From contig WJXW01000001.1 of the NCBI GenBank assembly GCA_015832175.1, positions 4,774,001 to 4,838,000 of the forward strand: a stretch of DNA of 64,000 nucleotides, given 5' to 3'. The notes beneath the pieces are model-generated. The model had not been told where the DNA came from. It searched no databases and worked only from the letters and a program-made list of their open reading frames with translations. A program made the position numbers and the translations under genes. Shown here in pieces: positions 297 to 61,330 of the stretch (within the stretch, counting starts at the first letter, position 1; the number at the start of each line of letters is the position of its first letter). Source of the DNA: Paraphaeosphaeria minitans. Taxonomy: Eukaryota > Ascomycota > Dothideomycetes > Pleosporales > Didymosphaeriaceae.

Positions 297-1550
297 TAGT
301 GATATATAGAATACTAGGTGTATCTTTACATCTAGTGGTAGTTCTAACTTATAGTTTACTAGTAATATTTGCTTAGAAATGTAAAATAGTCTAACTTTAA
401 TATAATCTAGTTTCTTATGTTTCCTCTTCTAAGTTTAAAGGTTCTTTATAAGTAAATATACTTTATCCCCCTTCTTTAGCTAAGGTGCTATTTTTTATTT
501 TTAGTTTTAGTATAAAATTAATTACTGCTAAGCTTTCTTAAAATTTTCTTAGAGTTATTAGTATATTTTCTTTATATTTTCTACTATATCTATGGCTTCT
601 TTTGCTTTGATTGTCGTAGGAAATTATTAGTTAAAGAGATATAGGTGTCTTCTATAGTTTATATAGAATAGTGTATGTCCTAATACTGCTAATACTTTGT
701 TATTATAGGCTAACTATGCTATAGGTAGTAATAAAACCTAGTTATTCTTTTAACTGTTACAGTAGATGCGTAGGTACGTTTCTATAGTTTAGTTCGTACG
801 TTCTGTCTGTCCGTCTATTTGTGGATAGTAAGCCGTTAATAATTTTTATTTTATTCTAAGCAGTGCTATAAGTGTTGTCTAATAATTTAACATAAAGAGC
901 TTGTCTCTATTACTAATAATTATTTTTAGGATTCTGTGGTGTCTAATTAGTTAGTCTAGAATAAGAAAAGCGAGTTCCTTTGCTATTATTCTTTTAAGGC
1001 ATAGAATGAGCTTAATATACTTAGTTAGTTAGTAGACTACTACTATTATACTATTGTATTTGATTCCTATTGTTAGATCTTTAGAGTTTAGAATTCCTGT
1101 AATAAAATCTATAGTAATATCTTCCTATAGTGCTGTTAGTATTCTAATTGCTTATATCTCTCTATATTTAAAATATATACTATATTTATTTCTTTAGCAT
1201 TCTATATATTTATAGATGTAAGTTGTTATAGCTTCTTTAATTCCTTTAAAAGTATAATTCCTTTAGATAAGTTCTATTATTTTCGTAATGCCTAGGTGTC
1301 TATACATAGAGTTATTGTGGTATTATTAGATAATCTTAGTCTATAGATATTCTAGAACTTCTTAGTTAATTACTAAAAGTTAATTTAGTTCCGCTATTAG
1401 TTCTAGAGATCTATCTTTAGCTTTGCGAAGAATTGTAGAGAAGGTTTTTTTTTTTTCTCTTACTAGATTACTTTATTAGCTAAGAGCGTTTACTCTACTA
1501 TTTTCTTTTCTAGCTATATAGATGATTTTAAACTTGTACTACCTTATAGT
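297..1550 (-). pseudogene. Gypsy element A, integrase part of pol (left fragment)
   Basis: This stretch is collinear with 2798-4051 of element B and encodes, on the minus strand, the integrase core up to the end of RNase H. The frame is full of TAG/TAA stops of RIP type. The right end stops at TATAGT, where element B is inserted, and the rest of A resumes at 8215. The bases ATAGT at 1546-1550 are repeated at 8215-8219 and form the target-site duplication of B. Confidence 0.85.
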
Positions 1551-1980
1551 TGTTAAATCCAAGAGGGTAGCTAGTCCTAAAGGGTTAAGGTTAGTTCTTG
1601 GGCAGGAGTACTTATAGAAGGTAGAAGGTCTTATTAATATAATAGTATCTTACAAAGTGTAACAAGTTAACAATTTAGTCTGCTAGAATCTAAACAATAG
1701 ATTAATAAACAGATTAAACACAAGTATAGAGAGTCTATCCTTGCGTTCCTATATACTAAGCAAAGTCCGCTCTGTAAAAAGCGCTCTGTAGAGAGCGCTC
1801 TATGTAGAGTAGTTATATATATTATACTCTGCACAGAGCAATTAAGCGCTCTATAGAGAGTAGTTACGTAACTTCTTTATTTAAGGCATAGCTAGTATTA
1901 AGTCCCCGCTTAATTCTTACTACGCGCCCGCTAGATATAAAACTAGCTTCCTACTATTATGTAGATTTTAGATCCTAACA
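1551..1980 (-). repeat. 3' LTR of element B
   Basis: This 430-bp LTR starts TGTTAAATCC and ends GATCCTAACA as read on the plus strand, so both termini are intact TG...CA. The next bases (1981 on) are the complement of the polypurine tract, which fixes this copy as the 3' LTR of a minus-strand element. Confidence 0.92.
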
Positions 1981-2090
1981 TTATCCCCTCTCTTTTATAG
2001 ATTTGTCCTAAATTACATATCTAGACCTTAGCTATTGTTACGTAAGCCGTCCTACTAACCCTGCTTACTATAAGTACGTCTATTAGTATT

Positions 2091-2570
2091 ATGCCTAGTA
2101 ACTCTACTGTTTAAAAACATTAATTATATTATAAGATCTAAGAAGCTAACATTATTATAGAGAGCCTTTATATTAATTACAGTTTTAAAAGTTCTGTTTA
2201 CTATATTATACTAGGTTTAGGTTTAAAGTGTTCTAAATGTATTCGCTTAGGTTATCTGTGTGTGAACATAAGCTAGTTATTACTAGATAAGACTTATAAG
2301 GAGTATAAAAAGAAGGTTAAGGAGGATAAGAAAGCGTTGTCTCTCCTAATAGTGCAGTTATTACGAAATAAGAAAATACTAGCTTAGGCTAAAGAGTGTA
2401 CTTATAAGAAAATATTATATCTAGCTATAGAAATAACTGCGGATAGTAAGGACGTAAATACAGATACTATTAATTATCCTACTACTACAGCGACTGTTAG
2501 TTACTCTACAGTAATGTGGTTAACGCTTAATATAGTAGACACTATAGCGTTAGTACTGCAATCCTCCTAG
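2091..2570 (+). pseudogene. Antisense accessory ORF of gypsy element B (159 codons, RIP-disrupted)
   Basis: The frame lies on the strand opposite gag-pol, between the chromodomain end of pol and the polypurine tract. It starts with an ATG followed by Pro-Ser-Asn-Ser-Thr and ends at TAG 2568-2570. It holds five internal stops, all explainable by C-to-T or G-to-A changes, and no indel relative to element E. Around the middle there is a Cys-x2-Cys-x6-Cys motif (Leu-Lys-Cys-Ser-Lys-Cys). A Lys/Glu-rich stretch follows that looks like a coiled coil. I do not recognise the family. The triad spacing recalls half of a fungal Zn2Cys6 cluster, but that is only a resemblance. The same frame is found in C and E, and its start in F. 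Confidence 0.75.
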
Positions 2571-2585
2571 GTATATTTGTGTTTC

Positions 2586-5500
2586 TAATAGAATTCTTTA
2601 ATCTTTTGCTAATAGTTTCCTAAATTGTTTTTTAGTTCCTAGGTGTTTTCGCTATGTGGGTAACCTTTCCACTTAATAAGGTACGTGTTGTTATACTAAT
2701 TGTATCCTAGAATTCTTTTAACCTTAAATTCATTTTCTTCCTTAGTCTAGTAGTAGAAGGTGGTTTCAACTAGTGTATTAGGGTCTACTGGTTCTAGTAG
2801 TGATACGTGGAATACTAGGTGTATCTTTGCATCTAGTAGTAGTTCCAACTTATAGTTTACTAGTAATATTTGCTTAGAAATATAAAATAGTCTAACCTTA
2901 ATATAATCTAGTTTCTTATGTTTCCTCTTCTAAGTTTAAAGGTTCTTTATAAGTAGATATGCTTTATCCCCCTTTTTTAGCTAAAGTACTATTTTTTGTT
3001 TTTAGTTTTAGTATAAAATTAATTGCTGCTAAGCTTTCTTAAGATTCTCTTAGAGTTGTTAGTGTATTTTCTTTATATTTTCTACTATATTTATAGCTTC
3101 TTTTACTTTAATTATCGTAGGAAATTGTTCGTTAAAGAGATGTGGGTGTCTTCTATAGTTTGTATAGAATAGTGTATGTCCTAATGCTACTAATACTTTA
3201 TTATTATAGGCTAACTGTGCTATAAGTAGTAATAAAACCTAGTTATTCTTTTAACTATTATAGTAGATGCGTAGGTACGTTTCTATAGTTTAGTTTATAG
3301 GTTCTATCTGTCTGTCTGTTTATAGATAGTAAGCTATTAATAATTTTTGTTTTGTTCTAAGCAGTGCCATAAGCGTTATTTAATAATTCAACGTAAAGAG
3401 CTTGTCTCTATCGCTAATAATTATTTTTAGGATTCTGTAGTATCTAATTAGTTAGTCTAGGATAAGAAAAGCAAGTTCCTTTACTGTTATTCTTTTAAGG
3501 CATAAAATAAGCTTAACATACTTAGTTAGTTAGTAGACTACTACTAGTATACTGTTGTATTTAATTCCTGTTATTAGATCCTTAGAGTTTAGAATTCCTA
3601 TAACAAAATCTATAGTAATATCTTCCTATAGTGCTGTTAGTATTCTAATTGCTTACATCTCTCTATATTTAAGATATATACTATGTTTGTTTCTCTAGTA
3701 TTCTACACATTTATAGATATAAGTTGTTATAGCTTCCTTAATTCCTTTAAAGGTGTATTTCCTTTAGATAAGTTCTATTGTTTTTGTAATGCCTAGGTGT
3801 TTGTATATAGGGTCATTATAGTATTGTTAGATAATCTTAGTCTGTAGATGTTCTGGAACTTCTTAGTTAATTACTAAAAGTTAATTTAGTTCTACTATTA
3901 GTTCTAGAGATCTATCTTTAGCTTTACGAAGGATTGCAGAGAAGGTTTTTTCCTTTTCTCTTACTAGATCACTTTGTTAGCTAAGAGCGTCTACTCTGCT
4001 ATTTTCTTTTCTAGCTATATAGATAATTTTGAACTTATACTACCCTATAGTTTACAACTATCTTTATTATTATAGCGTAAGTTCTTTTATTGTTGTGAAC
4101 CTTAAAAGGTTCTTATAATCTATATAGATTTCTAGCGTTAAGTAACTAAGCGCGTAAATCCTCTAGTGCTTTAAGGCTTTAATAATAGCGTAGAGTTCTT
4201 TATTATATATGTTGTATTATGTTTTAGCGTTATTAAATTTGCATAAGTAATAGGCAATTAGGTGCTATTTGCTATTACATTCTTATTTAGCGTAGGCGCC
4301 TAGCGTAAGATTGCTAGCGTCTATTTTAAAGCGCAGTAGTTTATCGCTTCTAAAATAAATAAGGATAGGTTCTATAATACATACTATCTTAAGGAGTTAG
4401 AATAACATTCCGCACTTATTTATCTATTTAAAGGGTACGTCCTTCTTTGTAAGATTTATTAAAAGTATTGTAACTTTTACGTAATCTTAAATAAATTGTT
4501 AATTAAATCTATAGAATTCTAAGAATTCTTAGATATTCTTAGCTATTTTTAGTATTAGCTAGTTCTTAATATATTTAACTTTACTTAGTGCTATCTTAAT
4601 TCCTTTTATAGTAATAATATGTCCTAGGAATTTAAGTTATTTAACGTTAAACTTGTATTTCTTAAGTTTAATGTAAAGGCATACTTTGTCTAGTGCTTCT
4701 AGTACTGTCTATATATGCTTAGTGTGGTCTAATTTATTTTTAGAAAAGACAAGGATATCGTCTATATACGCAATAACAAATATGTCTAGATATTTATAGA
4801 GTACGTTATTAATAAGTGCTATAAAAGCTGCTAGTGCGTTTGTAAGTCTAAATAGCATAACTTTATACTTAAATAGTCTATAGCGTAATTAAAATACTAT
4901 TTTCTATTCTTCACCTTTTTTAATTTGTATAAGGTGGTAACTGTCTCTTAGATCTATTATTGTGAATATCTTAGCTTAAGATAGTTAATCTTATAGCTCT
5001 ATAATATTTAGTAGTAAATATTAGTTCTTTATTATTATATTGTTAAGTTATTAGTAGTTAACGTATAGTCTGTCTAATCTATCCTTTTTCTTAATAAACA
5101 TGAAAGGGCTTACTACTAGTGACTTTAATAGTTATATATATCCTTTCTTAAGGTTTATCTTAATAAAATCATGTTCTTTAAGGAGTTCTTCTCTTATCTT
5201 ACTATATAGTAGTCTAAAGGGTGGCGTCTTCTTTTCTTCTAGGTCTATTATAAGATCCTAAGGTTAATATTTAGGTAGGTTTACTTTTCCCTCTTTTTCT
5301 ATAAATATGTGTATCTATTTCCTATACTCTCTTAGTAAAGTAAAAGGTGTACTATTGTCCTCCTTCTTGCGCTTTTTAACCTAGTAGTTCCTGCTAGCGT
5401 CTACTAAGGTGTGTTTCTGTTTTTTAACTATCTATTGTAGTATTATATTATTAATAACTCCCTTATTTACTATTATTTTTAGTTAATGCGTAGGCTTTGC

Positions 5501-7784
5501 TTATAATACATAATTACAGCGGTTAAATAATATTTTCTTTGTACCCTAGTTAATCTGTAGGTTGTGTATTATTAACTAAGGTAATTCTAAGACTAACTTA
5601 TGCTTAGATCCTAGTAAGACATCTAAGGTAAGTTCCTCTTTATGTCCTTGGACTATTATTATGGTAGTGACCTCCTAGTATATTTAAGGTGTCTTAGGCA
5701 TTAGGGATCTATTCGCGATATAGACAATATAGGGTACTTTTTTCTCTAATATTATAAGTCCTGGTTATCTTATTATTTAATAAGATATAAAGTTCTTTCC
5801 TACTTCTAAGTCTATAAGAGCTTAAGCCTATATTCTTTTAAGCTGTACTAGTAGCTTAACTAATACTATGCTTACTATAGTATTTAATTTAATAAAGGCG
5901 TTTTCTTGTCTAAGTTTAGGCCTAAAAAAGACATCTATTTATATAGGTTGTAGTTAAGTTCTAGTGCCTAGTATGTGTTTTTAAGCATCTGCTTCTATTG
6001 TTACTCTTAAGTACGTAACTTATATAGATTGTCTTTTTCTTCTTCTTTCTATAAGGATATTCTTCTATTTTTTCTTCCGCAGTCTTTACTATTCCTGTGT
6101 ACTAGTTAAATTAGTAGTTCTGTTATTACTTCTTATGTAGGGTAGTTTGCAAAGCTGTCCAAGTATTTAGCTATATAGTAGTATTTACAGTTTTAGTTTA
6201 GACACGTATACTAGTATAGTTATATATAGTCTCTATTAATAAGTATATTACAGCATTTGTTGCCTTTTAGTGTAAGGTAAGGAAAGTATTTTACTTATTA
6301 TTTATTCTAGAGGTGTTTATTGTAAGCTGTAATAGGGTAGTCTGTCTATATCTATCTATAGCGTAATTTCCTTCTAGGTTATTTTTTATTCTCTTCTTTC
6401 TTTGCCTTATATTATGTATATATTAGTTCTTCGTAATACGTCTATATATAGAATTAGTGTGTAGGATTTTAGTAGTCTAGGTAGTACTTTAGTACGTAGT
6501 CTAACTTTTTATTTTTATAGGGTTGCATTCCTTTTAGTGCCTAGGGGGGTTCTATGTAGTCCTAAACATTTAGTTTGTACTTAGGTGATATAGGGTTGTC
6601 TTCTTCCTGCCTACTTTGTGGGTAAAGAGTAGGAGATCTTGGTATCTCTTCTACGTCTTCTGTGTTGTAGTATACATTAGAGTTATCTTCTAGATCTTTA
6701 TATAGTTATAAGTTAGGTAAATCTAATTACTTACTTTGCTCTAGTGTAACGTATTAGTAATTAAATAGCGTTATAATAACTTCCTATTTCTTATTAAGTT
6801 CTTAGTCCTTAATAGTTAGTATATTTAACTTAGTTTAATAGACTTTATTCTTTAATCTACAGTTCCTAGCTATATAGCCTAGTTTGCCACATGTAAAGTA
6901 TTTATAGGTCTTAGTTATTAATTATTAACTTCTATTAGAGACATGTTTATTAGGCTGCTTAGGGCCTATTCTTCCTCTTTTTTCTTTGCCTAAGTAGTTA
7001 AACTAGACATCTTCTATTAGTTTATATCTCTAGTAGTTCCTTAGCTGTTGCTTTTAGACGATTCTAATAAGGTTCTTATAAACTATTTTTACTAGTTATC
7101 TAAAGCTTATTGCCCTAGGGTTTTAGTAGAGCTCCTATTACAGTAAAAACCACTCTTTGTTAATTCTAATAGTTTCTTTGTATAGTTCTTTAAGGTTAGC
7201 GATTTGTGCACTACTATATAAGAGTTCCTTACGTAGTTTCTATTTAAGTTCTTATTTATATATATCCTAGAGAGATTTATTATCTTAGTTAAGTTATATA
7301 GTGTATCTGTAAAACTTAGCTGTATACTTAGCTACTAATTATTTCTAAGTTATAGTCTAAATCTTTGCTTTTATAATAAAGTTCTTATTAGTAATTTTAA
7401 AGAGTTGCTTAAGGTATTTTTTAAAGTTATTATAATTCTTAATAATATTAACTGTATTAGCGTGCTTGTTTGCGTAATTATTATTATTATTGTTGTAGTC
7501 TATTGCTAGGTACTTTTTAAGGTAAAGATGGATTTATAATCCTATATCTCTTTATATATATATCGCTGCGAAGATAACTTTCTTTTTGTCTTTAAGGGGT
7601 TTATCTAAGTTAAAGAAGTAGAGGTCTAACTAGAGAATCTAGATGTTAGTTTAAGATTATTTACTAAGGTAGAGATTAGGTTTATACGCCTTATTACTAT
7701 CTTTTATAGGAGTAATCTTAGTAGCACCTAAAGCTGTAGAAGAGGTAGAAGTTTGTAAAGTACTTATATTAAGGGTGTTTAAGA
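2586..7784 (-). pseudogene. gag-pol of gypsy element B, RIP-inactivated
   Basis: Reading the minus strand, the region gives a gag capsid-like section, a CCHC-type zinc knuckle near 6860-6901 and a retropepsin with its Asp-x-Gly near 5805-5812. Reverse transcriptase follows with its Tyr-Ile-Asp-Asp equivalent near 4757-4770. RNase H, integrase and a C-terminal chromodomain (Val-Lys-Trp-Lys-Gly-Tyr equivalent) come next, ending near 2586. The domain order with integrase after RNase H and a terminal chromodomain defines a Ty3/gypsy chromovirus. Stops are very frequent (TAG/TAA in place of TGG, CAG, CAA), as expected for RIP. No frame longer than about 70 codons survives. Confidence 0.88.
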
Positions 7785-8214
7785 TATTAAATCTAAGAGG
7801 GTAGCTAGTCCTAAAGGGTTAAGGTTAGTTCTTAGGTAGAAGTACTTATAGAAGGTAGAAGGTCTTGTTAATATAATAGTATCTTATAAAGTGTAATAAG
7901 TTAATAATTTAGTCTACTAGAATCTAAACGATAGATTAATAAACAGATTAAATATAAGTATAGAGAGTCTATCCTCGCGTTTCTATATACTAAGCAAAGT
8001 CTGCTCTATAGGGAGCGCTCTGTAGAGAGCGCTCTATACAGAGCAGTTATGTGTATTATACTCTGCACAGAGTAATTAAGCGCTCTATAGAGAGTAGTTA
8101 CGTAACTCCTTTGTTTAAGGCGTAGCTGGCATTAAGTCCCCGCTCGATCCTTGCTACGCGCCCACTAGGTACAAAACCAGCTTCCTACCATTATGTGGAT
8201 TTCAGATCCTAATA
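7785..8214 (-). repeat. 5' LTR of element B
   Basis: This 430-bp copy is collinear with 1551-1980, with both termini altered by RIP (TATTAAATC start, CCTAATA end). It is followed directly by ATAGT, the right-hand target duplication. Confidence 0.9.
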
Positions 8215-11200
8215 ATAGTTTATAACTATCTTTGTTGTTATAGCGTAAGTTCTTTTATTGTTGTGAACCTTAGAAGGTTCTTATAATCTATGTAGATTTT
8301 TAGTGTTAAGTAACTAAGCGCGTAAATCTTTTAGTGCTTTAAGGCTTTAATAATAGCGTAGAGTTTTTTATTATGTATATTATATTGTGTTTTAGCGTTA
8401 TTAAATTTATATAAGTAATAGGTAATTAGGTGCTATTTGCTATTACATTCTTATTTAGTGTAGGCGCCTAGCGTAAGATCGCTAGCGTTTGTTTTAAAGC
8501 GCAGTAGTTTATTACTTCTAAAATAAATAAGGATAGGTTCTATAATACATACTATCTTAAGGAGTTAGAATAATATTCTGCACTTATCTATCTATTTAAA
8601 GGGTACATCTTTCTTTGTAAGATTTATTAAGGGTATTATAACCTTTATATAATCTTGGATAAATTGTTAATTAAATCTACAGAATCCTAAGAATTCTTAG
8701 ATATTCTTAGCTGTCTATAGTATTAGCTAGTTCTTAATATATTTAACTTTACTTAGTGCTATCTTAATTCCTTCTGTAGTAATAATATGTCCTAGGAATT
8801 TAAGTTGTTTAACGTTAAACTTATATTTCTTAAGTTTAATATAAAGGCATACTTTGTCTAGTGCTTCTAGTACTATCTATACATGCTTAGTGTGGTCTAA
8901 TTCGTTTTTAGAAAAGACAAGGATATTATCTATATACGCGATAACAAATATGTCTAGATGTTTACAAAGTATATTATTAATAAGTGCTATAAAAGCTGCT
9001 AGTGCGTTTGTAAGTCTAAATAGCATAACCTTGTACTTAAATAGTCTATAGTGTAATTAAAACGCTGTTTTCTATTCTTCACCTTTCTTAATTTATATAA
9101 GGTGGTAACTGTCTCTTAGATCTATTATTATAAATATCTTAGCTTAAGATAGTTAATCTTATAGCTCTATAATATTTAGTAGTAAATATTAGTTCTTTAT
9201 TATTATATTGTTAAGTTATTAGTAGTTAACGTATAGTCTGTCTAATCTATCCTTTTTCTTAATAAACATGAAAGGGCTTACTACTAGTGACTTTAATAGT
9301 TATATATATCCTTTCTTAAGGTTTATCTTAATAAAATCATGTTCTTTAAGGAGTTCTTCTCTTATCTTACTATATAGTAGTCTAAAGGGTGGCGTCTTCT
9401 TTTCTTCTAGGTCTATTATAAGATCCTAAGGTTAATGTTCTAGTAGGTTTGCTTTTTCTTCCTTTTCCGTGAATATGTGTGTCTATTTCCTATACTCTTT
9501 TAGTAAGGTAAAGGGTGTACTGTTGTCCTTTTTCTTACGCTTCTTAACCTAGTAGTTTCTACTAGCGTTTACTAAAGTGTGCTTCTGTTTTTTAACTGTC
9601 TATTATAGTATTATATTGTTAATAACTCCCTTATCTACTATTATTTTTAGTTAATATATAGGCTTTACTTACAATGCATAATTATAGCGTTTAAATAATA
9701 TTTTCTTTATACCCTAGTTAATCTATAGGTTGTGTATTATTAACTAAGGTAATTCTAAGACTAACTTATGCTTAGATCCTAGTAAGATATCTAAAGTAAG
9801 TTCCTCTCTATGTCCTTAGACTATTATTATAGTAGTAACCTCTTAGTATATTTAAGGTGTCTTAGGTATTAGGGATCTATTCGCGACATAGATAATATAG
9901 GGTACTTTTTTCTCTAATATTATAAGTCTTGCTTATTTTGCTATCTAATAAGATATAAAGTTCCTTCCTACTCTTAAGTCTATAAGAGCTTAAGCCTGTA
10001 TTCCTTTAAGCTATACTAGTAGCTTAACTAATACTATGCTTACTGTAGTATTTAATTTAATAAAGGCATTTTCTTGTCTAAGTTTAGGCCTAAAAAAGAT
10101 ATCTATTTGTGTAGGTTATAGTTAAGTTCTAGTGCCTAGTATACGTTTCTAAGCATCCGCTTCTGTTATTACTTTTAAGTACATAACTTATGTAGATTGT
10201 CTTCTTCTTTTTCTTTCTATAAAGATATTCTTCTGTTTTTTCTTCTGCAGTCTTTACTGTTCCTATATACTAGTTAAATTAGTAGTTCTATTGTTACTTC
10301 TTACATAGGGTAGTTTACAAAGCTGTCTAAGTGTTTAGCTATGTAGTAGTATTTATAGTCTTAGTTTAGACACATGTACTAGTATAGTTATATATAGTCT
10401 CTATTAATAAGTATGTTGTAGCATTTATTACCCTTTAGCGTGAGGTAAGGAAAGTATTTTACTTATTATTTATCCTAGAGGTGTTTATTGTAAGCTGCGA
10501 TAGGGTAGTCTATCTATATTTATCTATAGCGCAATTTCTTTCTAGGTTATTTCTTATTTTCTTTTTTCTCTATTTTATATTATGCGTATATTAGTTCTTC
10601 GCAATACGTCTATATACAGAATTAGTGTGTAGGATTTTAGTAGTCTAGGTAGTACTTTAGTATGTAGTCTAACTTCTTATTTTTGTAGGGTTACATTCTT
10701 TTTAGTGCCTAGTAGGGTTCTATGTAGTCCTAAATATTTAGTTTATACTTAGGTAATATAGGGTTATCTTCTTCCTGCCTACTTTGTGGGTAAAGAGTAG
10801 GAGATCTTAGTATCTCTTCTACGTCTTCTGTGTTATAGTATATGTTAGAGTTATCTTCTAGATCTTTGTATAGTTATAAGTTAGGTAAATCTAATTACTT
10901 ACTTTACTCTAGTGTAATGTGTTAGTAACTAAATAGTGTTATAATAACTTCTTATTCCTTATTAAGTTCTTAGTCCTTAATAGTTAGTATATTTAACTTA
11001 GTTTAATAGACTTTGTTCTTTAATCTACAGTTCCTAGCTATGTGGCCTAGTTTACTATATATAAAGTATTTATAGGTCTTAGTTATTAATTATTAACTTC
11101 TATTAGAGACGCGTTTATTAGGCTACTTAGGGCCTATCTTTCCTTTTTTTCCTTTACTTAAGTAGTTAAACTAGACATCTTCTATTAGTTTATATCTCTA

Positions 11201-12382: not shown

Positions 12383-15300
12383 TATAATAACTTTAAGAAA
12401 TACCTTAAATAACTCTTTAAGATTACTAATAAGGACTCTATTACAAAAGTAAAGATTTAGACTATAACTTAGAAATAATTAGTAGCTAAATATATAGCTA
12501 AGTTTTATAGATATGCTGTGTAACTTAACTAGGACAATAAATCTCTTTAAGATATATATAAATAAGGACTTAAATAGAAACTACGTAAAAAACTCCTATA
12601 TAGTAGTATATAAATTGCTAACCTTAAGGAACTGTATAAAGAAACTATTAGGATTAATAAAGAATAGTTCTTACTGTAATAAGAGCTCTACTAAAACTCT
12701 AGAGTAATAAGCTTTAGATAACTAGCAAAAGTAGTTTATAAGAACCCTGTTAGAATTGTCTAAAAGCAATAGCTAAGGAACTACTAGAGATATAAACTAA
12801 TAAAAGATGTCTAGTTTAACTACTTAGGCAAAGGAAAAGGAGGAAAGATAGGCCTTAAGCAGCCTAATAAACGCGTTTCTAATAGAAGTTAATAACTAAT
12901 AACTAGGACTTATAAATACTTTATATATAGCAAACTAGGGTATATAGCTAGAAACTGTAGATTAAAGAACAAAGTCTATTAAACTAAGTTAAATATACTA
13001 ACTATTAAAGACTAAGAACCTAATAAGGAATAGAAAGTTATTATAACATTATTTAGTTACTAACGCGTTACACTAGAATAAAGTAAGTAATTAGATTTAC
13101 TTAGCTTACAATTATACAAAGACCTAGAAGATAACTCTAACGTATACTATAACGTAGAAGACGTAAAAGAGATACTAAGATCTCCTACTCTTTATCTATA
13201 AAGTAGGTAGGAAGAAGACAACCCTATATTACCTAAGTATAAACTAAATGTTTAGGACTATATAGAACCCTACTAGACACTAAAAGGGATGTAACCCTAT
13301 AAAAATAAGAAATTAGACTACGTACTAAAGTACTACCTAGACCACTAAAATCCTACACACTAATTCTGTATATAGACGCATTACGAAGAACTAATATATA
13401 TATAATATAAGGTAGAGAAAAAGGAGAATAAAAAATAACCTAGAAGGAAACTACGCTGTAGATAAATATAGATAGACTACCCTATTACAGTTTACAATAA
13501 ACACCTCTAAGATAAATAATAAGTAAAATACTTTCCTTATTTTATACTAAAAGGTAACAAATGCTATAATATACTTATTAACAGAGACTATGTATAACTA
13601 TACTAGTATACGTGTCTAAACTAAGACTATAAATACTACTATATAGCTAAACATTTAGACAGCTTTGTAAACTGCCCTATATAAGAAGTAATAATAGAAC
13701 TACTAATTTAACTAGTATATAGGAATAGTAAAGACTGCGGGAGGAAAAATAGAAGAACATCCTTATAGGAAGAAGAAGAAAATAATCTATATAAGCTATG
13801 TACTTAAAAATAATAATAGAAGCGGATACTTAGAAATATATACTAGGCACTAGAACTTAACTACAACCTACATAAATAGATGTCTTTTTTAGGCCTAAAC
13901 TTAGACAAGAAAACGCCTTTATTAAATTAAATACTATAGTAAGTATAGTATTAATTAAGCTACTAGTACAGCTTAAAGGAATATAGGCTTAAGCTCTTAT
14001 AGACTTAGAAGTAGAAAAAAACTTTATATCTTATTAGATAGTAAGATAAGTAGGACTTATAATATTAAAGAAAGAAGTACCCTACATTATCTATATTATA
14101 AATAGATTCCTAATGCCTAAGACACCTTAAATATACTAGGAGGTCACTACCACGATAATAGTCTAAAGACATAGAAAGGAACTTACCTTAGATATCTTAT
14201 TAGAATCTAAGTATAAGTTAGTCTTAGGATTACCTTAGTTAACAATATACAACCTACAGATTAACTAGGGTACAAAGAAAATATTATTTAAACGCTATAA
14301 TTATATATTATAAGCAAAGCCTACGTATTAACTAAAAATAATAGTAGATAAAGAAGTTATTAACAACATAATACTACGACAAATAGTTAAAAAACAGAAA
14401 TACACCTTAGTAGACGCTAGTAGGAACTACTAGGTTAAAAAGCGCGAGAAGGAGGACAATAGCACACCCCTTACCTTACTAAGAGAGTACAGGAAATAGA
14501 CACATATATTCATAAAAAAGGAAAGAAAAGTAAACTTACTAGAACATTAACCCTAGGATCTTATAATAGACCTAGAGGAAGGGAAGACGCTACCTTTTAG
14601 ACTACTATATAGTAAGATAAGAGAAGAACTTCTTAAAGAACGTAATTTTATTAAGACAAATTTTAAGAAAGGATATATATAACTATTAAAGTTACTAGCA
14701 GTAAGCCCTTTTATATTTATTAAGAAAAAGGATGGATTAGATAGACTATGCGTTAACTACTAATAACTTAATAATATAATAATAAAGAACTAATATCTAC
14801 TACTAAATATTACAGAGTTACAAGATTAACTATCTTAAGCTAAGATATTTATAATAATAGATCTAAGAGACAGTTACTACCTTATACAAATTAAAGAAAA
14901 TAAAGAATAGAAAATAGTGTTTTAATTACGCTATAGACTATTTAAGTATAAAGTTATACTATTTAGACTTACAAATGCACTAGCAGCTTTTATAGCACTT
15001 GTTAATAACGTACTTTATAAACATCTAGACATATTTATTATTACGTATATAGACGATATCCTTATCTTTTCTAAAAACGAATTAGACCACACTAAGTATG
15101 TATAGATAGTACTAGAAGCACTAAATAAAGCATACCTTTGCATTAAACTTAAGAAATATAAGTTTAACGTTAAATAACTTAAATTCCTAGGATATATTAT
15201 TACTATAGAAGGAATTAAGATAGCACTAAGTAAAGTTAAATGTATTAAGAACTAGCTAATACTAAAAATAGCCAAGAATATCTAAGAATTCTTAGGATTC

Positions 15301-17229
15301 TATAGATTTAACTAATAATTCATCTAAGATTACGCAAAGGTTATAATACCTTTAATAAATTTTATAAAGAAAGATGTACCCTTTAAATAGACAGATAAGT
15401 GTAGAATATTATTCTAACTCCTTAAGACAGTATATATTATAGAACCTATTTTTATTTATTTTAGAAGCGATAAACTACTGCGCTTTAAAACAGACACTAG
15501 CGATCTTACGCTAGGCGCCTACGCTAAATAAGAATGTAATAGTAAATAGTACCTAATTGCTTATTACTTATACAAATTTAACAACGCTAAAACACAATAC
15601 AACGTATATAATAAAAAACTCTACGCTATTATTAAAGCCTTAAAGCACTAGAGAATTTACGCGCTTAGTTACTTAACGCTAGAAATCTATATAGATTATA
15701 AGAACTTTCTAAGGTTTATAATAATAAAAGAACTTACGCTATAATAACAAAGATAGTTACAAACTATAAGGTAGTATAAGTTTAGAATTATCTATATAGC
15801 TAGAAAAGAAAATGGTAGAGTAGACGCTCTTAGCTAATAAAGTAATTTAGTAAAAGAAAAAGTAAAAACTTTTTTTATAATCCTTCGCAAAGCTAAAGAT
15901 AGATCTCTAGAGCTAATAGTGGAACTAAATTAACTTTTAGTAATTAACTAAGAAGTTTTAGAATATCTATAGACTAAGATTATCTAATAATACTATAATA
16001 ACCCTATGTATAGACACCTAGATATTACAAAGACAATAGAACTTATCTAAAGGAATTATACCTTTAAAGAAATTAAGAAAGCTGTAATAACTTATATCTA
16101 TAAATGTGCAGAATGCTAAAGAAACAAACATAGTATATATCTTAAATATAGAGAGATGTAAGCAATTAGAATACTAATAGCACTATAGGAAGATATTGCT
16201 ATAGATTTTGTTATAGGAATTCTAAACTCTAAGGATCTAACAACAGGAATTAAATATAATAGTATACTAGTAGTAGTCTACTAACTAACTAAGTATATTA
16301 AGCTTATTCTATGTCTCAAAAGAATAACGACAAAAGAACTCGCTTTTTTTATTCTAGACAGATTAATTAGACACCACAGAATCCTAAAAATAATTATTAG
16401 TAATAGAGACAAGCTCTTTACGTTAAATTATTAGACAACGCTTATAGCACTACTTAGAACGAAATAAAAGCTATTAACAGCTTACTATCTATAAATAGAC
16501 AGATAGACAGAATGTACGAACTAAACTATAGAAACGTACCTACGCATCTACTGCAATAGTTAGAAGAATAACTAGGTTTTATTACTACCTATAGCACAGT
16601 TAGCCTATAATAACAAAGTATTAGCGGTATTAGGACATACACTGTTCTATGCAAACTACAGAAGACACCTACATCTTTTTAATTAATAATTTCCTACAAT
16701 AATTAAAGCAAAAGAAGCTATAGATATAGTAGAAAATATAAAGAAAATACACTAACAACTCTAAGAGAATCTTAAGAAAGCTTAGCAGTAATTAATTTTA
16801 TACTAAAACTAAAAATAAAAAATAGCACTTTAGCTAAAGAAGAAGGATAAAGTATATCTACTTACAAAGAACCTTTAAACTTAGAAGAAGAAACACAAGA
16901 AACTAGATTATATTAAAGTTAGACTATTTTACATTTCTAAGCAAATATTACTAGTAAACTATAAGTTAGAACTACTGCTAGATGCAAAGATATACCTAGT
17001 ATTCTACGTGTTACTACTAGAACTAGTAGACCCTAATACACTAGTTAAAACCACCTTCTACTACTAGACTAAGGAAGAAAACAAATTTAAGGTTAAAAGA
17101 ATTCTAGAATACAATTAGCATAATAATACGTATCTTGTTAAGTAGAAAGGTTACCTATACAGTGAAAACACTTAGGAACTAAAGAACTACCTAGGAAACT
17201 ATTAGCGAAAGATTAAAGAATTCTATTAA
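12383..17229 (+). pseudogene. gag-pol of gypsy element C, RIP-inactivated
   Basis: Despite many TAG/TAA stops the plus strand shows the gag capsid region, a zinc knuckle near 12900-12960 and protease near 13970-14060. Reverse transcriptase has its Tyr-Ile-Asp-Asp motif near 15050 and RNase H its Thr-Asp motif near 15490. Integrase and a chromodomain (Val-Lys-(stop)-Lys-Gly-Tyr) follow near 17130-17160. The frame closes at TAA 17227-17229. The open frame 12513-12707 is out of phase with gag and is not a gene. Confidence 0.83.
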
Positions 17230-17298
17230 TAGACTTACTTAAGATAGTAACGCTAAGGAATTATTCTAGAACTCTAGAGGCAGATTGTCTATTATAGA

Positions 17299-17757
17299 CT
17301 ATATAGACGTGCTAAGTTTAGCTAGACTAGTGGGCTAAGTAGGATAGGCTAGGTCCTCCTTTAACTCTAACTCTATTAGCGCAGCACTCTCTACCGTAAT
17401 AACTTTACTAGCACGCTTTTTGTTATACGCTAATTATTTTAATAACTAATCCTCTTTTATACGCGCTATACGTAGGGCTTTAAACACTATATTTTATTTT
17501 TTTTATACCTCTAATATTTACGCCTCTAATTTCTTCTTCTTAGTAATTAACTATAAGAACTTATTCCTAGTAATAGCTATATTACACTTTAAGCCTTATT
17601 TCTAACACTTACTACACTTCCCTAAGCTAATATAGACTTTGTAAACGAAAAAATGTAACTTATAAAAGGAGCACTTTAACACTATAACTACTTTATAGTT
17701 TTTAATAGTAGAGATAAGGCTGTAATAACGCTTTGTAGAATTATAGTTAGTAGGCAT
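17299..17757 (-). pseudogene. Antisense accessory ORF of gypsy element C (152 codons, RIP-disrupted)
   Basis: This is the divergent counterpart of the antisense frames in B and E. It starts with an intact ATG at 17757 followed by Pro-Thr-Asn, as B has Met-Pro-Ser-Asn. A Cys-Ser-x-x-Lys-Leu segment comes next, then Lys-Cys-Ser-Lys-Cys and a further Gly-Leu-Lys-Cys. A long Lys/Glu/Ala-rich stretch follows that is likely a coiled coil. Ten or so in-frame stops are all TAG/TAA. The frame occupies the same place, between the end of pol and the polypurine tract, although the DNA here is otherwise unlike B and E. Persistence of start, Cys pairs and helical tail in a diverged background argues for a protein under selection before RIP. 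Confidence 0.68.
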
Positions 17758-17794: not shown

Positions 17795-18205
17795 TATTAC
17801 GTACTAGATAATAATGTAGGACTTAGGCGCTTATAAAGGTATAATAAAGCGATAATAGGGTTATAAATATAATAAAGAGACGCTAAGTAACTTAGATTAG
17901 GTTATATAATATACTTAGTTACTTAGCGGCACTAAGTAGTAGAGTAAGTTACGTAAGGTGCTTAGTTACTTAGTGGCACTAAGTAGTAGAGTAGCCTTAG
18001 TATATAGGAACGTAAGGATAGGCTCTCTATACTTATGTTTAATCTGTTTATTAATCTATTATTTAGATTCTAGCAGACTAAATTATTAACTTATTACACT
18101 TTACAAGATATTATTGTATTAATAAGACCTTCCACCTTCTATAAGTACTCCTGCCTGAGAACTAACCTTAACCCTTTAGGACTAGCTACCCTCTTGGATT
18201 TAACA
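17795..18205 (+). repeat. 3' LTR of element C (411 bp, chimeric with the B/E LTR)
   Basis: It begins TATTACGTAC after the polypurine tract and ends GGATTTAACA. From about 18000 to the end it is nearly identical to the second half of the B/E LTR, while the first 200 bp are unrelated to it. The first part holds two near-identical 33-bp direct repeats at 17914-17946 and 17961-17993. Confidence 0.82.
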
Positions 18206-24782: not shown

Positions 24783-25262
24783 CTAGGAGGATTATAGTAC
24801 TAACGCTATAGTGTCCACTATGTTAAGTGTTAACTATATTACTGTAGAGTAACTAACGGTTGCTGTAGCAGCAGGACAATTAATAGTATCTATATTTACG
24901 TCCTTACTATCCGCAGTTATTTCTATAGCTAGACACAACGTCTTCTTATAAGCACGCTCTTTAGCCTAAGCTAGTATTTTCTTATTTTGTAACAACTACA
25001 CTATTAGGAGAGACAACGCCTTCTTATCCTCCTTAACCTTCTTCTTGTACTCCTTATAAGTCTTATCTAGTAATAACTAGCTTATGTTTACACATAGACA
25101 ACCTAAGCGAATATATTTAGAACACTTTAAACCTAAATCTAGTATAACGTAGTAAATAGAACCTTTAAAACTGCAATTAATATAAGGGCTCTCTACAATA
25201 ATATTAGCTTCTTAGATCTTATAATACAATTAATATTTTTAAATAGTAGAGTTGCTAGGTAT
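24783..25262 (-). pseudogene. Antisense accessory ORF of gypsy element E (159 codons, RIP-disrupted)
   Basis: This is the exact positional counterpart of 2091-2570 in element B, again 480 nt with no indel. The start codon is mutated ATG to ATA (25262-25260) and is followed by Pro-Ser-Asn-Ser-Thr. The product has Ile-Asn-Cys-Ser, then Gly-Leu-Lys-Cys-Ser-Lys (the second Cys of the pair is now Tyr) and Gly-Cys-Leu-Cys. A Glu-Tyr-Lys-Lys-Lys-Val-Lys-Glu helix-like section follows. Both B and E end with the same stop after a Leu-x-Ser-Ser tail. Function unknown. Confidence 0.74.
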
Positions 25263-25372: not shown

Positions 25373-25802
25373 TATTAGGATCTAAAATCTATATAATAGC
25401 AGGAAGCTAGTTTTATACCTAGTAGGCGCGTAGTAAGGATTAAGCAGGGACTTAATGCTAGCTACGCCTTAAATAAAAGAGTTACGTAACTACTCTCTAT
25501 AGAGCGCTTAATTACTCTATACAGAGCATAATATATATAACTGCTCTATATAGAGCGCTCTCTATAGAGCGCTCCCCACAGAGCGGACTTTGCTTAGTAT
25601 ATAGGAACGCAAGGATAGACTCTCTATACTTGTGTTTAATCTATTTATTAATCTATTATTTAGATTCTAGCAGACTAAATTATTAACTTATTACACTTTG
25701 TAAAATACTATTGTATTAACAAGACCTTCCACCTTCCGTAAGTACTCCTGCCTAAGAACCAACCTTAACCCTTTAGGACTAGCTACCCTCTTGGATTTAA
25801 CA
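25373..25802 (+). repeat. 3' LTR of element E
   Basis: This 430-bp LTR is preceded by the polypurine tract, starts TATTAGGATC (RIP form of TGTTAGGATC) and ends in an intact GGATTTAACA. It includes two perfect GAGCGCTC palindromes at 25553-25560 and 25567-25574. Confidence 0.92.
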
Positions 25803-27972: not shown

Positions 27973-28038
27973 ATCGCTAGTTTAATTATATAACGTGTTT
28001 ACGTTTGGTTATCGCTAGTTTAATTATATAACGTGTTT
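27973..28038. repeat. 28-bp perfect direct repeat with 10-bp spacer
   Basis: The 28-bp sequence beginning ATCGCTAGTTTAATTATATA occurs at 27973-28000 and again, unchanged, at 28011-28038. It abuts the outer end of the element G LTR. It is too long for an LTR target duplication and is probably an old tandem duplication in the target DNA. Confidence 0.85.
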
Positions 28039-28814
28039 TTTAGGGTTGTAAATATGCTTACTATCTCCTTTTTTTTCTATAGAATAGCTTAGACTAGATT
28101 GTACAACTCTTTACAGATATACACACTTTATTTCTACTTATTATATAATCTAAAATTTAATCTCTAGTAAAGGTAATAATATAGAGCCTACGCATTTAGC
28201 TTATAGGGTGCTCCGTTTTCAGACCTTACTAGTTTACAGTTAATTAGAATTAACTACTAATTAGTATAGATTTAGCTTAATCTGTAATTAAGTATTTAAG
28301 GGTTAATAGTATACTATTATATAAAGGGTAAGAAGTAGGTTTAATTAATTACGTCTTGTCTATTATACAAAGGGGCACTAAGGGCTTTATAAAGTCTCTA
28401 CCTCTTAGCGCTAACCTAAGTAGTGGGTTCTTGTGCGGGTCCCCATAGGTAGGTAGGCCCCCACTTTACCCAGTGCTACTTGTACGATAAACTGTACAGA
28501 CAAATAAGGTGTTAAAAGGGTAGTAAGATAGTAGGCTTAAGGGACTAAGCCTAGAAGAGAGAGAGAAAAATATAGTATAAAGGTTAGCCTATAATAGAGA
28601 GTTAGAGAAATATAGGACTAATTAGCTGTTATTTAAAATAGCTAATTAGGAAATAGATAGGAGCTGGAAAATAATAACTAACCTAACTAGACAAGATATA
28701 AAGAGACCTAATAGATAATTAGAGTAGTTGAATTTGTATAATAGACTTTGGATAGAATAACTTAACTTATTCTTTTATATTCCTCACTTAAGGTAAACGT
28801 ATATATAACACTAC
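28039..28814. other. AT-rich relic DNA without identifiable gene
   Basis: I see no credible protein frame on either strand. The DNA is TA-rich with a short GC-richer island at about 28425-28500, around a CCCCATAGGTAGGTAGGCCC stretch. An imperfect inverted repeat around TAATTAGCTGTTATTTAAAATAGCTAATTA lies at about 28620-28650. It is probably decayed transposon or intergenic sequence. Confidence 0.4.
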
Positions 28815-29305
28815 ACTACGCGCCCTCCTAAGTATAAAACTAGTAGCGAGCTATTATTAGAGTTTTAGATCCTAATATTATCTTCCACTTTTCTAGTATT
28901 TATCCTTAAATTATATATCTAGGTCTTAGCCTTATTATATAAACTAACTTACTAACCCTACTTACTCTAAGTACATTTGTTAGCATTATATCTACTAACT
29001 CTACTATTTAAAAACATTAACTTTATTACAAAATTAGAGACGCTAATATTATCGCAGAAACCTCTTATATAAACTATAGTCTTAAAGGTCTTATTTAAAT
29101 ACAAGTATAGAGAGTCTATCCTCGCGTTCCTATATACTAAAGGAATCCTGCTCTGTAGGGAGCACTCTACCGCTCTGTAGAGAGCGATCACGTGATTCCT
29201 TTGTTCGGGGCGTAGTCAGCGTATAACCCACGTCAGACCCCTGCTACGCGCCCTCCTAAGTACAAAACCGGCGGCGAGCCATCGTTAGAGTCTCGGATCC
29301 TAACA
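28815..29305 (-). mobile_element. Chimeric gypsy LTR derivative, element F
   Basis: A truncated LTR end (28815-28877, ending GATCCTAATA) is followed by 3' internal sequence. That stretch includes the start of the antisense accessory frame (about 28880-29090, plus strand). At about 29091 it jumps directly into the U3-R part of another LTR copy that ends GGATCCTAACA at 29305. Gag, pol and part of the LTR are missing. The last 150 bp are GC-rich and hardly mutated, unlike the rest of the block. Confidence 0.7.
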
Positions 29306-29362
29306 CCCATCTATCCACCCACACTTGCACGCCGAGTGCGCAAAGAGACTAGACTAGCGAAA

Positions 29363-29389
29363 AGGGCGGGCACCACAGTGGTCCGCCCT
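29363..29389. repeat. Imperfect 27-bp palindrome upstream of PLD gene
   Basis: AGGGCGG and CCGCCCT arms flank a second pair, ACCAC and GTGGT, around a central A. It lies about 170 bp upstream of the start codon at 29556 and could be a factor-binding site or hairpin; no known motif is recognised. Confidence 0.35.
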
Positions 29390-29555
29390 CAGCCACCCGT
29401 ACCACTGGCGCTCAACGTCATCTCGTTGCTACATCCGCTCCTTTTATATCCCAGCACAACGTTCTGCAGAAGCACATTGCAAGTATTGTGTCTCTCTTGA
29501 ACGACTTTGGAGAGGTACCTCCGGCCTTGAGGCGTGTTGAAAACCCCCCCATAGC

Positions 29556-31040
29556 ATGCCACCACTCGAACCTCTGCCAGGTTCATTGCCTTGCATAGAC
29601 CCATTTGTTAAAGCCCTTACCGAAGCAGCACCCGTCAACCACCACGACGACCCGAACTGGTATGCACACGACCCGCAATGCCTCATCTCCGATTCTACCG
29701 TCAACTCATTCGTGACCGGAACTGGAGATGTCATCTATCGGTCGTTAACACCACTTTTGGAGGCGACGAACCATGAGCTCATATTGGTGACCTGCTTCTG
29801 GGCACGCTCCCGTACCCTCGATACACTCAATACACTCTTGCGGAAGCTTTCCATAAAAGCCATCAGACGTGGAACTGGAAAGATAGCAGTACGATTATGT
29901 TTCTCCTCCTCGGCACTCTTCCAGAAACTGTTCCACACGCAGTCAATAAATGGCCAAACCTATTCACCCACTTCGTGGACGAAGCAGTTCGGCCTGCCAC
30001 ACCCAAGCGAACTCGAAGGCCTCGACCTCCGCATGCGCTCCGTATTTATTCTCCCTTTTAGCGTCATGCATCCCAAATTCATCCTCGTTGATCGCCAGAC
30101 CGTCGTCCTACCTTCGTGCAACATCAGTTGGGAAGAGTGGTTCGAAGGCGCCATCACATTTTCTGGCCCCATCGTCGAGAACTTTTTCCAGTTCTACCAG
30201 AAATTCTGGTGTCGGATGGCCGTACAAAGCCTCCCCGCGTCAACAAGCAAATCCGGGCACCCCAATCCTCAACGCGCCGGCGCCACAGCTACGCAGAACC
30301 AGCACGCTAGCCCACCCCACGGCCACACCATGACGCCTATTCACACCGCTTCACCCCGCATCCCCACAGTATTCCTCCCCTCTCCACATAGACGAAACCC
30401 CCGCTTCCAACCCTTCGCCACCCCCTCTGCCGTCTCCGCACCCCCAACCCCACTCAATGTCTTTGTCCTCGGCCTGCTCGCCCGAGCAACACGAACAATA
30501 CGTATACAAACTCCAAACCTCACCGCGTCCCCCGTACTCTCTGCCATTTTGAACGCGCTTGAACGGGGCGTAGACGTCCAAATCTTGACGTCCGAGCGCC
30601 TCATGATTCTCGAGCAGCTCGTCACCGCCGGCACCACGACATCGCGCTGCGTGAAGACGCTAATCAAGCGGTACAAGAAACTCGCGCGAGCGGCAGCCGA
30701 TCGCCCCTCCACCGACGAAGAAGCAGCGCTCTCGGCTCCACGGCTGGGCGTGCTGAGGATATTGTATTTCGAGCCTCTGCATGGGAGCAAGGCGCGTGGG
30801 AAGGAGGCTGGCGAGCCGCAGCAGAGCCATCTCAAGATGACCATTGTGGATAGCGACGTGGTGGTGCTGGGGTCTGGCAATCTTGATCGTGCGAGCTGGT
30901 TCACGAGCCAGGAGCTAGGCGTCGCTTGTTTTGACAAGGGGCTTGTTGCGCAGGTACAAGAGGCTGTGGATCGGGGGATGAAGGGGAGAGCAAGGCTCGT
31001 GTTTGACGGGTCGAGGGCAGTTAGTAACCCAGTCTCATAG
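29556..31040 (+). CDS. Phospholipase D-like (HKD) family protein
   Basis: A single-exon frame of 494 aa holds two HxK(x)4D motifs. The first is His172-Pro-Lys174 with Asp179, followed by Ser-Cys-Asn and a Glu-Glu pair. The second is His425-Leu-Lys427 with Asp432, followed by Gly-Ser-Gly-Asn-Leu-Asp. Two such motifs build the shared active site of the phospholipase D superfamily, which cleaves or transfers phosphodiesters. A Pro/Ser-rich low-complexity linker of about 75 residues (roughly 240-310) separates the halves. There are no signal peptide or membrane segments, so it is probably intracellular. The substrate is not predictable: lipid, nucleic acid or cardiolipin synthase-like chemistry are all possible. 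The start at 29556 is the first ATG in frame after a stop. The gene begins only 250 bp from the transposon block yet keeps normal, high-GC codon use. Confidence 0.88.
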   Translation: MPPLEPLPGSLPCIDPFVKALTEAAPVNHHDDPNWYAHDPQCLISDSTVNSFVTGTGDVIYRSLTPLLEATNHELILVTCFWARSRTLDTLNTLLRKLSIKAIRRGTGKIAVRLCFSSSALFQKLFHTQSINGQTYSPTSWTKQFGLPHPSELEGLDLRMRSVFILPFSVMHPKFILVDRQTVVLPSCNISWEEWFEGAITFSGPIVENFFQFYQKFWCRMAVQSLPASTSKSGHPNPQRAGATATQNQHASPPHGHTMTPIHTASPRIPTVFLPSPHRRNPRFQPFATPSAVSAPPTPLNVFVLGLLARATRTIRIQTPNLTASPVLSAILNALERGVDVQILTSERLMILEQLVTAGTTTSRCVKTLIKRYKKLARAAADRPSTDEEAALSAPRLGVLRILYFEPLHGSKARGKEAGEPQQSHLKMTIVDSDVVVLGSGNLDRASWFTSQELGVACFDKGLVAQVQEAVDRGMKGRARLVFDGSRAVSNPVS

Positions 31041-59464: not shown

Positions 59465-59647
59465 AACGGGTGTTCGCGGTCCGCCATTTCGACTGCCGGA
59501 CGGATACTTGCAGCAACAGGCCCCCAGATCTTCATGCAGCGATGATGATGGGATGGCGCAGGATATCGAGCTTGGCTGGCCGCAGCAGGGCGCACAGCAG
59601 CAGCCGACGCACAAAAAAAGTACCTGTTACCGGGTAAACAGAGTGGG

Positions 59648-60012
59648 AGTGTTTGAGTGGTATTGTTATGAGGGTGTGTTTGATTGGTATTGATATGAGG
59701 GTGTGTTTGAGTGGTATTGTTATGAGGGTGTGCTTGACTGGTATTGTTATGAGGGTGTGCTTGACTAGTATTGTGATGAGGGTGTGTTTGAGTGGTATTG
59801 TTACGAGGGTGTGTTTGAGTAGTATTGTGATGAGGGTGTGTTTGAGTGGTATTGTTATGAGGGTGTGTTTGAGTGGTATTGTGATGAGGGTGTGCTTGAC
59901 TAGTATTGTGATGAGGGTGTGTTTGACTAGTATTGTGATGAGGGTGTGTTTGACTAGTATTGTGATGGTTGTGTGTTTGACTAGTGTCTATTGTTGTTAT
60001 GAGGGTGTGTTC
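59648..60012. repeat. 27-bp minisatellite, about 13 units
   Basis: The unit is close to GAGGGTGTGTTTGAGTGG followed by TATTGTTAT. Variation between units is confined to a few positions (GAGTGG, GACTGG, GACTAG, GATTGG; TTGTTAT, TTGTGAT). One unit near 59985 has an insertion. Because 27 is a multiple of three, a frame with a nine-residue period stays open across it. Confidence 0.93.
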
Positions 60013-61330
60013 CGCACAGAGACGCAGTATCTACCGCAAAACCTGGCGTCAAGTGTTTATGCTAGGCTTACCTACTGGGCGAGCACCAGGGGACGGGCGA
60101 TCGACTTCGCGTGTGGCTGATGGCAATACAGCCTGACATGCGGACACACGACACACGGCACACGACGCACGACACAGCTTCGACTCGCACAGAGGGCTTG
60201 TCTGACCGTTGTTTGGATGGACATGACGAAGGCGAGGGCGCGTTCCGCTCACCAGGTTCTGCTTCGAGAAGGCAGGTTACGTCCCGTCAGGCCCGTGGAA
60301 CGTTGCAAGAATGCAACTTGGGCCGCATCCTTCGCAGCCAGATTTCCTGTTCGGTGGCGGGCTCCACCGGCCATCAGCCTGTGTTGGTGGACGCTTTCGA
60401 GGGCTGTGGGCATCGCGGTGAAAATGCACATGGTCGCCGTGTTGTGGGCAGCTTGTCACGACTCATCGCGCAGCGCAGACAAGACTCTGCACAGTGACCA
60501 CGAGAGAGAGAGAGCGAGGGAGAGACACACAGACAGAGAGACAGACAGAGACAGAGGGACAGTCGCCCCTTTCGCAGACACAGGGCGAGCGATCGATCCA
60601 CGTGTCGGCAGGGTTGCCTTTGCAGGCTGCGATCCATGGGGATGGATGGATGGGGATGGATGGAGCCCGCTAGACCATCGTGCCTACGCGAGTGCCTACC
60701 CAGACTGCCTTACCCAGATGCAGCCCTTGGCGTGGGCTATCTTTTGGCTTCCGCTGCAAAGTCCACCCTCCCGACTCCCCGCGCAGACGCCAGCGCTGCA
60801 GATTTCAGGAAAAGAAAACTTTTCCGTGGAGAAGGGCCTGAAGAGCAGGACGCATCGGGGAAGTTGCAGCCAACGGCCGCAGCCGAGCAGCGATGGAGCT
60901 GGTAGCACCCATACCTACCGTACCGTACCCAACTGAACCGTCTGCTGCAACGGGAGCCGCGTCGGGGAACAGGTATCCCTCGCCTTGCGGAAACACAGCC
61001 GCCGAGCCCAGCGAGCCCAGCGAGCCCAAGCAGACAGTTTGGTCGGGGGGGTGTGTGCGTGTGTGTGCCAGTCTCGGTCTGCTGCTGCCCGTGTCCATGT
61101 AGGCCCGGCTGAGCAATACACGGACGCGGAGGCTGGTCCTGGCGAATCGCACCGGGGATGGGGTGCGAATTATGCCATTGGCAGCGGACCGTAGCCTTTG
61201 CGTTTGTCCCAGGACCATGTCTGACATGCTCATGGCAAGGTCATGGATGGGGAGGCGTCGCCGTAGGTAAGCCGCGTTCCAGGCGCAGCGCAAGAGGCAG
61301 CGCAGTCGACCTCGGTGGTCAAACAACAAG

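Follow-up and report, generated by a model that had tools for sequence, protein, structure and literature searches.

Why should a retrotransposon carry a gene on the strand opposite its gag-pol, and why should that gene differ between related elements together with the adjoining U3 region of the long terminal repeat (LTR)? The question is raised by a stretch of 64,000 nucleotides from Paraphaeosphaeria minitans (positions 4774001-4838000 of contig WJXW01000001.1; hereafter the window), in which the Ty3/gypsy elements B, C and E each hold a frame antisense to gag-pol, between the end of the chromodomain and the polypurine tract. From the window and the 47.45 Mb genome that was searched, we show that this frame is protein-coding and under purifying selection, that gene type and U3 type occur together and the U3s carry repeat arrays, and that B and C differ by the exchange of gene plus U3 as one block (the cassette). 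To judge by its sequence, the product looks like a miniature Gal4-type DNA-binding factor. The features concerned are as follows, in window positions.

1548..1760, minus strand: TATA and R-U5 part of the 3' LTR of element B, common to element C (0 transversions in 210 sites)
1761..1980, minus strand: U3 of the 3' LTR of element B, cassette-specific, with four copies of a 17-nt repeat like AAGCGCTCTGTAGAGAG
1984..1996, minus strand: polypurine tract of element B
2091..2570, plus strand: antisense gene of element B, B type, damaged by repeat-induced point mutation (RIP); from translation and copy alignment
2586..6045, minus strand: pol of element B; from similarity to element C
17239..17757, minus strand: antisense gene of element C, C type; from translation and the open copy L069
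17780..17791, plus strand: polypurine tract of element C
17795..17995, plus strand: U3 of element C (C type), with a repeated CTAAGTA motif
17996..18205, plus strand: R-U5 part of element C, common to B and E
24783..25262, minus strand: antisense gene of element E, B type, start codon ATA
25373..25595, plus strand: U3 of element E, B type; the TATA follows at 25596
28932..29097, plus strand: remnant of a B-type antisense gene start, adjoining LTR pieces (element F)

Coding status and selection

The original prediction had placed frames of about 153-160 codons in B, E and C, and all were recovered (160 codons in B and in E, 153 in C), including the ATA start in E. Its end for the C frame, 17299, was wrong: the open copy L069 has a Trp codon where that stop stands, and the frame continues to 17239. 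Internal stops, final stops excluded, number five in B, eight in E and nine in C. The absence of indels between B and E held over 32 distinct B-type copies (B and E included), which show no indel column against the 480 nt of B. Damage of the RIP type also fits, since the six B cysteine columns contain only Cys or Tyr across these copies, the replacement expected from a G-to-A change. Among 30 C-type copies, 29 have no indel column and one has six; Cys is still present in some copies at five of the six cysteine columns, and in none at the third (codon 39). Element F does retain the start of the frame: 166 nt are 75% identical to B, and 34 aa match at window 28994-29095.

Elsewhere in the genome the antisense frame is open in two copies, L069 (170 aa) and L078 (186 aa). 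In L069 the frame runs from 4227 to 4739 and overlaps pol (895-4230) by 4 nt; in L078 it runs from 648 to 1208, and the pol stop codon, read from the other side, stands at 1214. The L069 product is identical to PMIN01_12119 of P. minitans, whose UniRef name begins 'Zn(2)-C6 fungal-type'.

Selection was assessed on transversions, because RIP makes only transitions, and one was counted only where it set L069 apart from 90% or more of the 30 C copies, over 495 scored sites. There were 23, distributed 4/1/18 over the three codon positions; 17 were synonymous and 6 non-synonymous, where a synonymous fraction of 0.165 was expected, giving a ratio of non-synonymous to synonymous change (dN/dS) of 0.070 (p 1.8e-9). 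At thresholds of 70% and 50% the count was 18 synonymous to 6. The conserved antisense coding gene that had been proposed is thereby borne out for the C type; for a third type, K, the two copies compared differ by 1 transversion, too few to inform on selection.

Exchange of gene and U3 as a block

Element B occupies 1548-8217, with gag-pol on the minus strand and LTRs of about 435 bp. The DNA around the C frame had been described as otherwise unalignable with that of B, which is not the case: pol of B (2586-6045) is 91% identical to C 13769-17228, similarity stops at the start of the cassette, and 210 bp of the LTR again match at 94%. Between B and C the differing parts are the antisense gene and U3 only, a joint change on a common gag-pol that the original prediction had missed. 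Transversions put the contrast in numbers: 2 in 596 sites of the pol tail and 0 in 210 sites of R-U5, against 190 in 666 sites of the interval that comprises the antisense gene and U3 as far as the TATA box (Fisher 5e-56). The B-C cassette differs by 0.285 transversions per site, compared with 0.319 for shuffled DNA (range 0.289-0.349, 20 shuffles). The cassettes of L069 and C, which are of the same type, differ by 34 in 691. The L069 pol tail lies 6/590 transversions from B and 4/590 from C, too few to order the backbones of B, C and L069.

Within the C type the order of relationship flips along the element. L069 is closer to L039 in pol (4/594 transversions; 16/592 for L075), but its gene is closer to that of L075 (6/513; 26/495 for L039), with Fisher values of 0.007 and 0.0002. 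Between L078 and the K copy of L058 there are 1/561 transversions in the gene and 9/390 in pol. These conflicts between pol and gene order in the C and K types indicate that blocks move between backbones.

The K-type antisense gene of L058 (2472-3032) lies near a C-type element. L078 and L069 differ by 2/205 transversions in R-U5 and 27/338 in pol; in this pair R-U5 is either strongly conserved or exchanged too. The pol C-terminus falls into two length classes (about 154-157 and 165-168 codons), which suggests further subfamilies.

Pairing of gene type with U3 type and the promoters

U3 typing covered the B and C types, in 75 locus rows that reduce to 69 distinct loci once 6 duplicates are dropped; L075, whose gene resembles that of L069 and whose U3 resembles that of C, was counted as one type. 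Gene type equals U3 type in 68 of the 69 and no locus is mixed, the sole exception being L073, which has no U3 match. The pol tail directly adjoins the antisense gene in 68 of 69 as well, the miss being L076. A polypurine tract common to the types (44-nt match, 75%) separates gene from U3.

Each of the gene types B, C and K goes with its own U3 repeats, the K pairing resting on one copy (L078). A 47-bp unit that includes inverted repeats occurs twice in the U3 of L069; the U3 of L078 has 17-bp TCCCA repeats, and that of element B has AGCGCTCT repeats. Repeated 7-mers exceeded 500 of 500 shuffles in all four U3s tested, and did not do so in the L069 and L078 genes or in R-U5 or pol of L069. At L069 4817-5976 an insert of about 1.15 kb, flanked by a 13-bp direct duplication judged by eye, sits in the U3; element C is without it.

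B, C, E, L069 and L078 have the same sense TATA motif, AGTATATAGGAACG, which still belongs to the shared block but borders on the exchanged one. U3 and gene vary while the core promoter stays; consequently, the putative upstream binding-site region changes together with the gene for a protein of DNA-binding type. An antisense promoter of its own at the 3' end of the element had been predicted. The antisense ATG lies about 37 nt from the LTR in L069 and about 30 nt in L078, so that in these two open-frame copies the promoter must be in, or right beside, the 3' LTR.

Features of the antisense protein

The Cys-x2-Cys pairs noticed earlier are present, and they are not isolated pairs: across B-type copies they form C-x2-C-x6-C-x9-C-x2-C-x6-C at codons 27/30/37/47/50/57. 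Zn2Cys6 (Gal4-type) clusters have the spacing C-x2-C-x6-C-x(5-12)-C-x2-C-x(6-8)-C. That spacing occurs in L078 and in 118 of 127 relatives compared, which are related to each other and not independent, and in 0 of 12700 shuffles. The nine misses include four of the five B-type proteins, and 117 of the 118 matching proteins share the single form C-x2-C-x6-C-x8-C-x2-C-x6-C. In the wider alignment that the prediction called for, the cysteines are conserved in 86 relatives.

Domain and fold searches were less decisive. Pfam PF00172 did not reach its gathering score (best E 0.064; 8 of the 86 relatives at E up to 1), L078 scored 14.9 of 21 bits, below the cut-off, and the three window proteins matched no Pfam family at E up to 5. 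For the L069 protein three Pfam families were listed at E up to 10, none of them bZIP, and a PDB sequence search gave no convincing match (CD2-LAC9 at E 3.2 and 0.2). The structure model of the C type has a long helix after the cysteine cluster, in line with the helix-like tail proposed earlier, and all ten of its Foldseek matches were zinc-cluster proteins, none of them significant; the agreement of VIA-align is not independent, since it re-aligns Foldseek's own list. The B-type model had a predicted local distance difference test score of 46.9 and was not used for fold search. In the C type a Trp-containing acidic motif is conserved at the C-terminus. Taken from its sequence, the gene product is probably a protein of 160-190 aa with an N-terminal six-cysteine cluster of Zn2Cys6 spacing followed by a long, probably dimerizing helix; it would bind zinc and DNA.

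Profile comparison relates the three gene types unequally. Over the six cysteines, C and K are homologous, with 97% in hhalign and a score of 79, where 40 shuffles reached no more than 20.1 (43 against 18.2 for the first 75 residues alone). C and B are probably homologous (54%, with a score of 36 compared with a maximum of 19.4 over 40 column shuffles), a weaker match than C-K, and comparison of B with K gave no match.

Relatives and copy numbers

By Pfam searches on pieces of L069 the host element classes as a chromodomain Ty3/gypsy element (chromovirus) with a predicted reverse transcriptase, integrase and C-terminal chromodomain: RVT_1 (4e-36), Chromo (5e-17) and Integrase_H2C2 were above cut-off, and rve (3e-7) fell slightly under it, with 30.9 of 32.6 bits. 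Further along L069, at 6967-8828, 49-nt perfect inverted repeats surround a 357-aa frame that is DDE-transposase-like by eye.

At least 142 stretches of the genome match the B type, some being fragments of a single copy, and none is full-length without stops. For the C type 150 of at least 304 candidates were scored, and for the K type 150 of at least 205; one in each was without stops. Among relatives, 5 of 45 B-type candidates (all at E up to 1.2e-13) and 22 of 98 C-type candidates (all at E up to 3.4e-17) are open. The C profile found 296 relatives at E up to 10 among 7995 scored, the best 120 of the 296 all at or below 6.8e-65. Relatives were named from P. minitans, Sporormia fimetaria and Hortaea werneckii, and some of the contigs listed measure 6-7 kb, roughly the length of an element; the placement antisense to pol was read in the P. 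minitans loci. Scans of viral contigs (16 pattern stretches) and of prokaryote genome contigs (165 pattern stretches) yielded no confirmed relative.

Proposed function and alternatives

We hypothesize that the antisense protein binds the U3 repeats of its own element and controls that element, gene and U3 forming a swappable cassette of regulator and binding site; we lean toward this account while leaving it considerable room for error. According to this hypothesis the accessory gene between pol and the 3' LTR would be transcribed from the U3 of the 3' LTR, and its product, acting as a dimer, would bind the repeated motifs in the adjoining U3, which are also present in the 5' LTR, thereby setting the rate of the sense promoter. 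An activator would be likelier than a repressor in view of the acidic/aromatic tail. Replacement of the whole cassette, with gag-pol and TATA-R-U5 left unchanged, would then give rise to subfamilies with different regulator/binding-site pairs. A bolder form, which we put forward only tentatively and by analogy, is that gene plus U3 act as an exchangeable immunity-type module resembling the repressor/operator of temperate phages: each factor would be specific for its own U3 repeats, elements with the same gag-pol would be regulated independently, and swaps would found subfamilies. If true, this would explain why fungal chromodomain elements diversify in U3 and not in R-U5 or gag-pol.

Some observations weigh against a cassette that does nothing but swap. 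The older B-type lineages L071-L073 diverge vertically from B, in pol (0.03-0.05), gene (0.07-0.10) and U3 (0.10-0.13) together, and pol of L078 is itself 0.07-0.08 from that of B, C, E and L069. Moreover, gene and U3 are physically adjacent, and linkage alone could move both. This last point also serves the strongest competing explanation, which we consider unlikely, namely that the protein is a real zinc-cluster factor acting elsewhere (at host promoters, in integration-site choice or in nuclear entry of the complementary DNA) and moves with U3 by adjacency at the 3' end of the RNA. Template-switch recombination has been suggested for crapaud elements with varied U3 and conserved R-U5, in an account whose available text does not mention an antisense gene (PMC10787394). 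Such a factor leaves unexplained, however, that cassette-specific repeat arrays are found in U3 alone, and that the shared polypurine tract, a possible crossover point, has produced no mixed locus among the 69.

A role as nucleic-acid chaperone, or as a structural aid in assembling particles or in reverse transcription, with a zinc-knuckle-like part and a coil, would suit a protein that is small, charged, cysteine-rich and helical. We nevertheless regard it as improbable: gag already carries a CCHC knuckle (read in L077), the C-x2-C-x6-C-x8-C-x2-C-x6-C spacing is all but invariant among pattern-matching proteins, and Foldseek returned only zinc-cluster DNA-binding proteins, albeit without significance. 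It is less probable by far that only the antisense transcript matters, through double-stranded RNA or promoter interference, with the frame incidental. Antisense transcripts of LTR elements can act without a protein (reviewed in PMC7264820), yet neither the codon-level purifying selection nor the conserved cysteines would be expected of an incidental frame. A chance or mirror frame opposite a sense gene, doubted from the start, drew no support and is refuted: the sense frames opposite the L069 gene have 2, 3 and 7 stops, shuffling the L069 frame at its base composition left 0 of 2000 sequences open, and relatives occur in other records.

Relation to known systems

Antisense genes at this position are already known. 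The original prediction cited plant LTR elements, correctly, and one has also been described in a fungus: brtn of the Boty-like retrotransposons of Botrytis cinerea (PMC8365987, PMC7264820, PMC4227169, PMC5987419), in a Ty3/gypsy element with a CHROMO domain and again between pol and the 3' LTR, a likeness by description (position and element type). In plants, antisense open reading frames occupy the same place in PvRetro13 and in Grande (gene23), RIRE2 and Retand (TRP28) (PMC7264820, PMC11963269), and for those of the last three a regulatory role has been proposed; the Grande product is nuclear, TRP28 is predicted to bind DNA (PMC7264820, PMC11963269), and about half of the Retand clusters have tandem repeats in the antisense-gene region (PMC11963269). 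TRP28 has another domain, however, and the words 'zinc' and 'coiled' are absent from the main text of that paper (PMC11963269). The plant regions measure 2.9-6.6 kb, compared with about 0.6 kb here, and their available descriptions contain no exchange with U3.

HBZ of human T-cell leukemia virus type 1 offers a parallel in how such a gene may work, and only in that sense. It is an antisense gene with a 3' LTR promoter (for our elements an LTR promoter is the likely case) and the layout of a dimerizing transcription factor, bZIP, and it lowers the activity of its own LTR (PMC10186651). HBZ is described as acting through CREB-2 and other AP-1 family partners; it has no zinc cluster, and the available text describes no cassette exchange (PMC10186651). 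Crapaud of Podospora, like our elements, has a chromodomain and falls into subfamilies that vary in U3, the 5' half of the LTR, with R and U5 conserved; its LTR type and internal region evolve apart, and the account leaves the cause of U3 variety open (PMC10787394). It differs in that no antisense gene enters the account, the word 'antisense' having 0 occurrences (PMC10787394). Gal4-type Zn2Cys6 factors (PF00172) share the six-cysteine spacing and the following helix, and their fold may be similar to the predicted one; the present protein is far smaller than these, is encoded by a mobile element and falls below the Pfam cut-off.

A PubMed Central literature search found no paper joining an antisense gypsy gene with a Zn2Cys6-type protein or with exchange of gene plus U3, and these two features, the first as predicted, appear to be what is new. 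It has been known for years that LTR elements can carry an antisense gene at the 3' end, but not what such a gene does. Here there is a recognizable DNA-binding layout with a likely target adjoining it, and three gene types come with their own U3 on related gag-pol; the hypothesis is therefore directly testable with purified protein and short DNA. A regulator/binding-site cassette would offer a cause for unexplained U3 subfamilies such as those of crapaud, and a parallel to HBZ outside the retroviruses.

Other features of the window

The left 28 kb of the window, at 26-32% GC, is packed with nested, RIP-damaged LTR elements. At about 28000-30000 the GC content jumps from about 30% in these repeats to mostly 50-60%. 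In the GC-rich half, positions 59591-60022 hold 11 direct, in-register copies 27 nt apart (compared as 162-nt units, 69-92% alike to the reference), perhaps encoding a 9-residue protein repeat.
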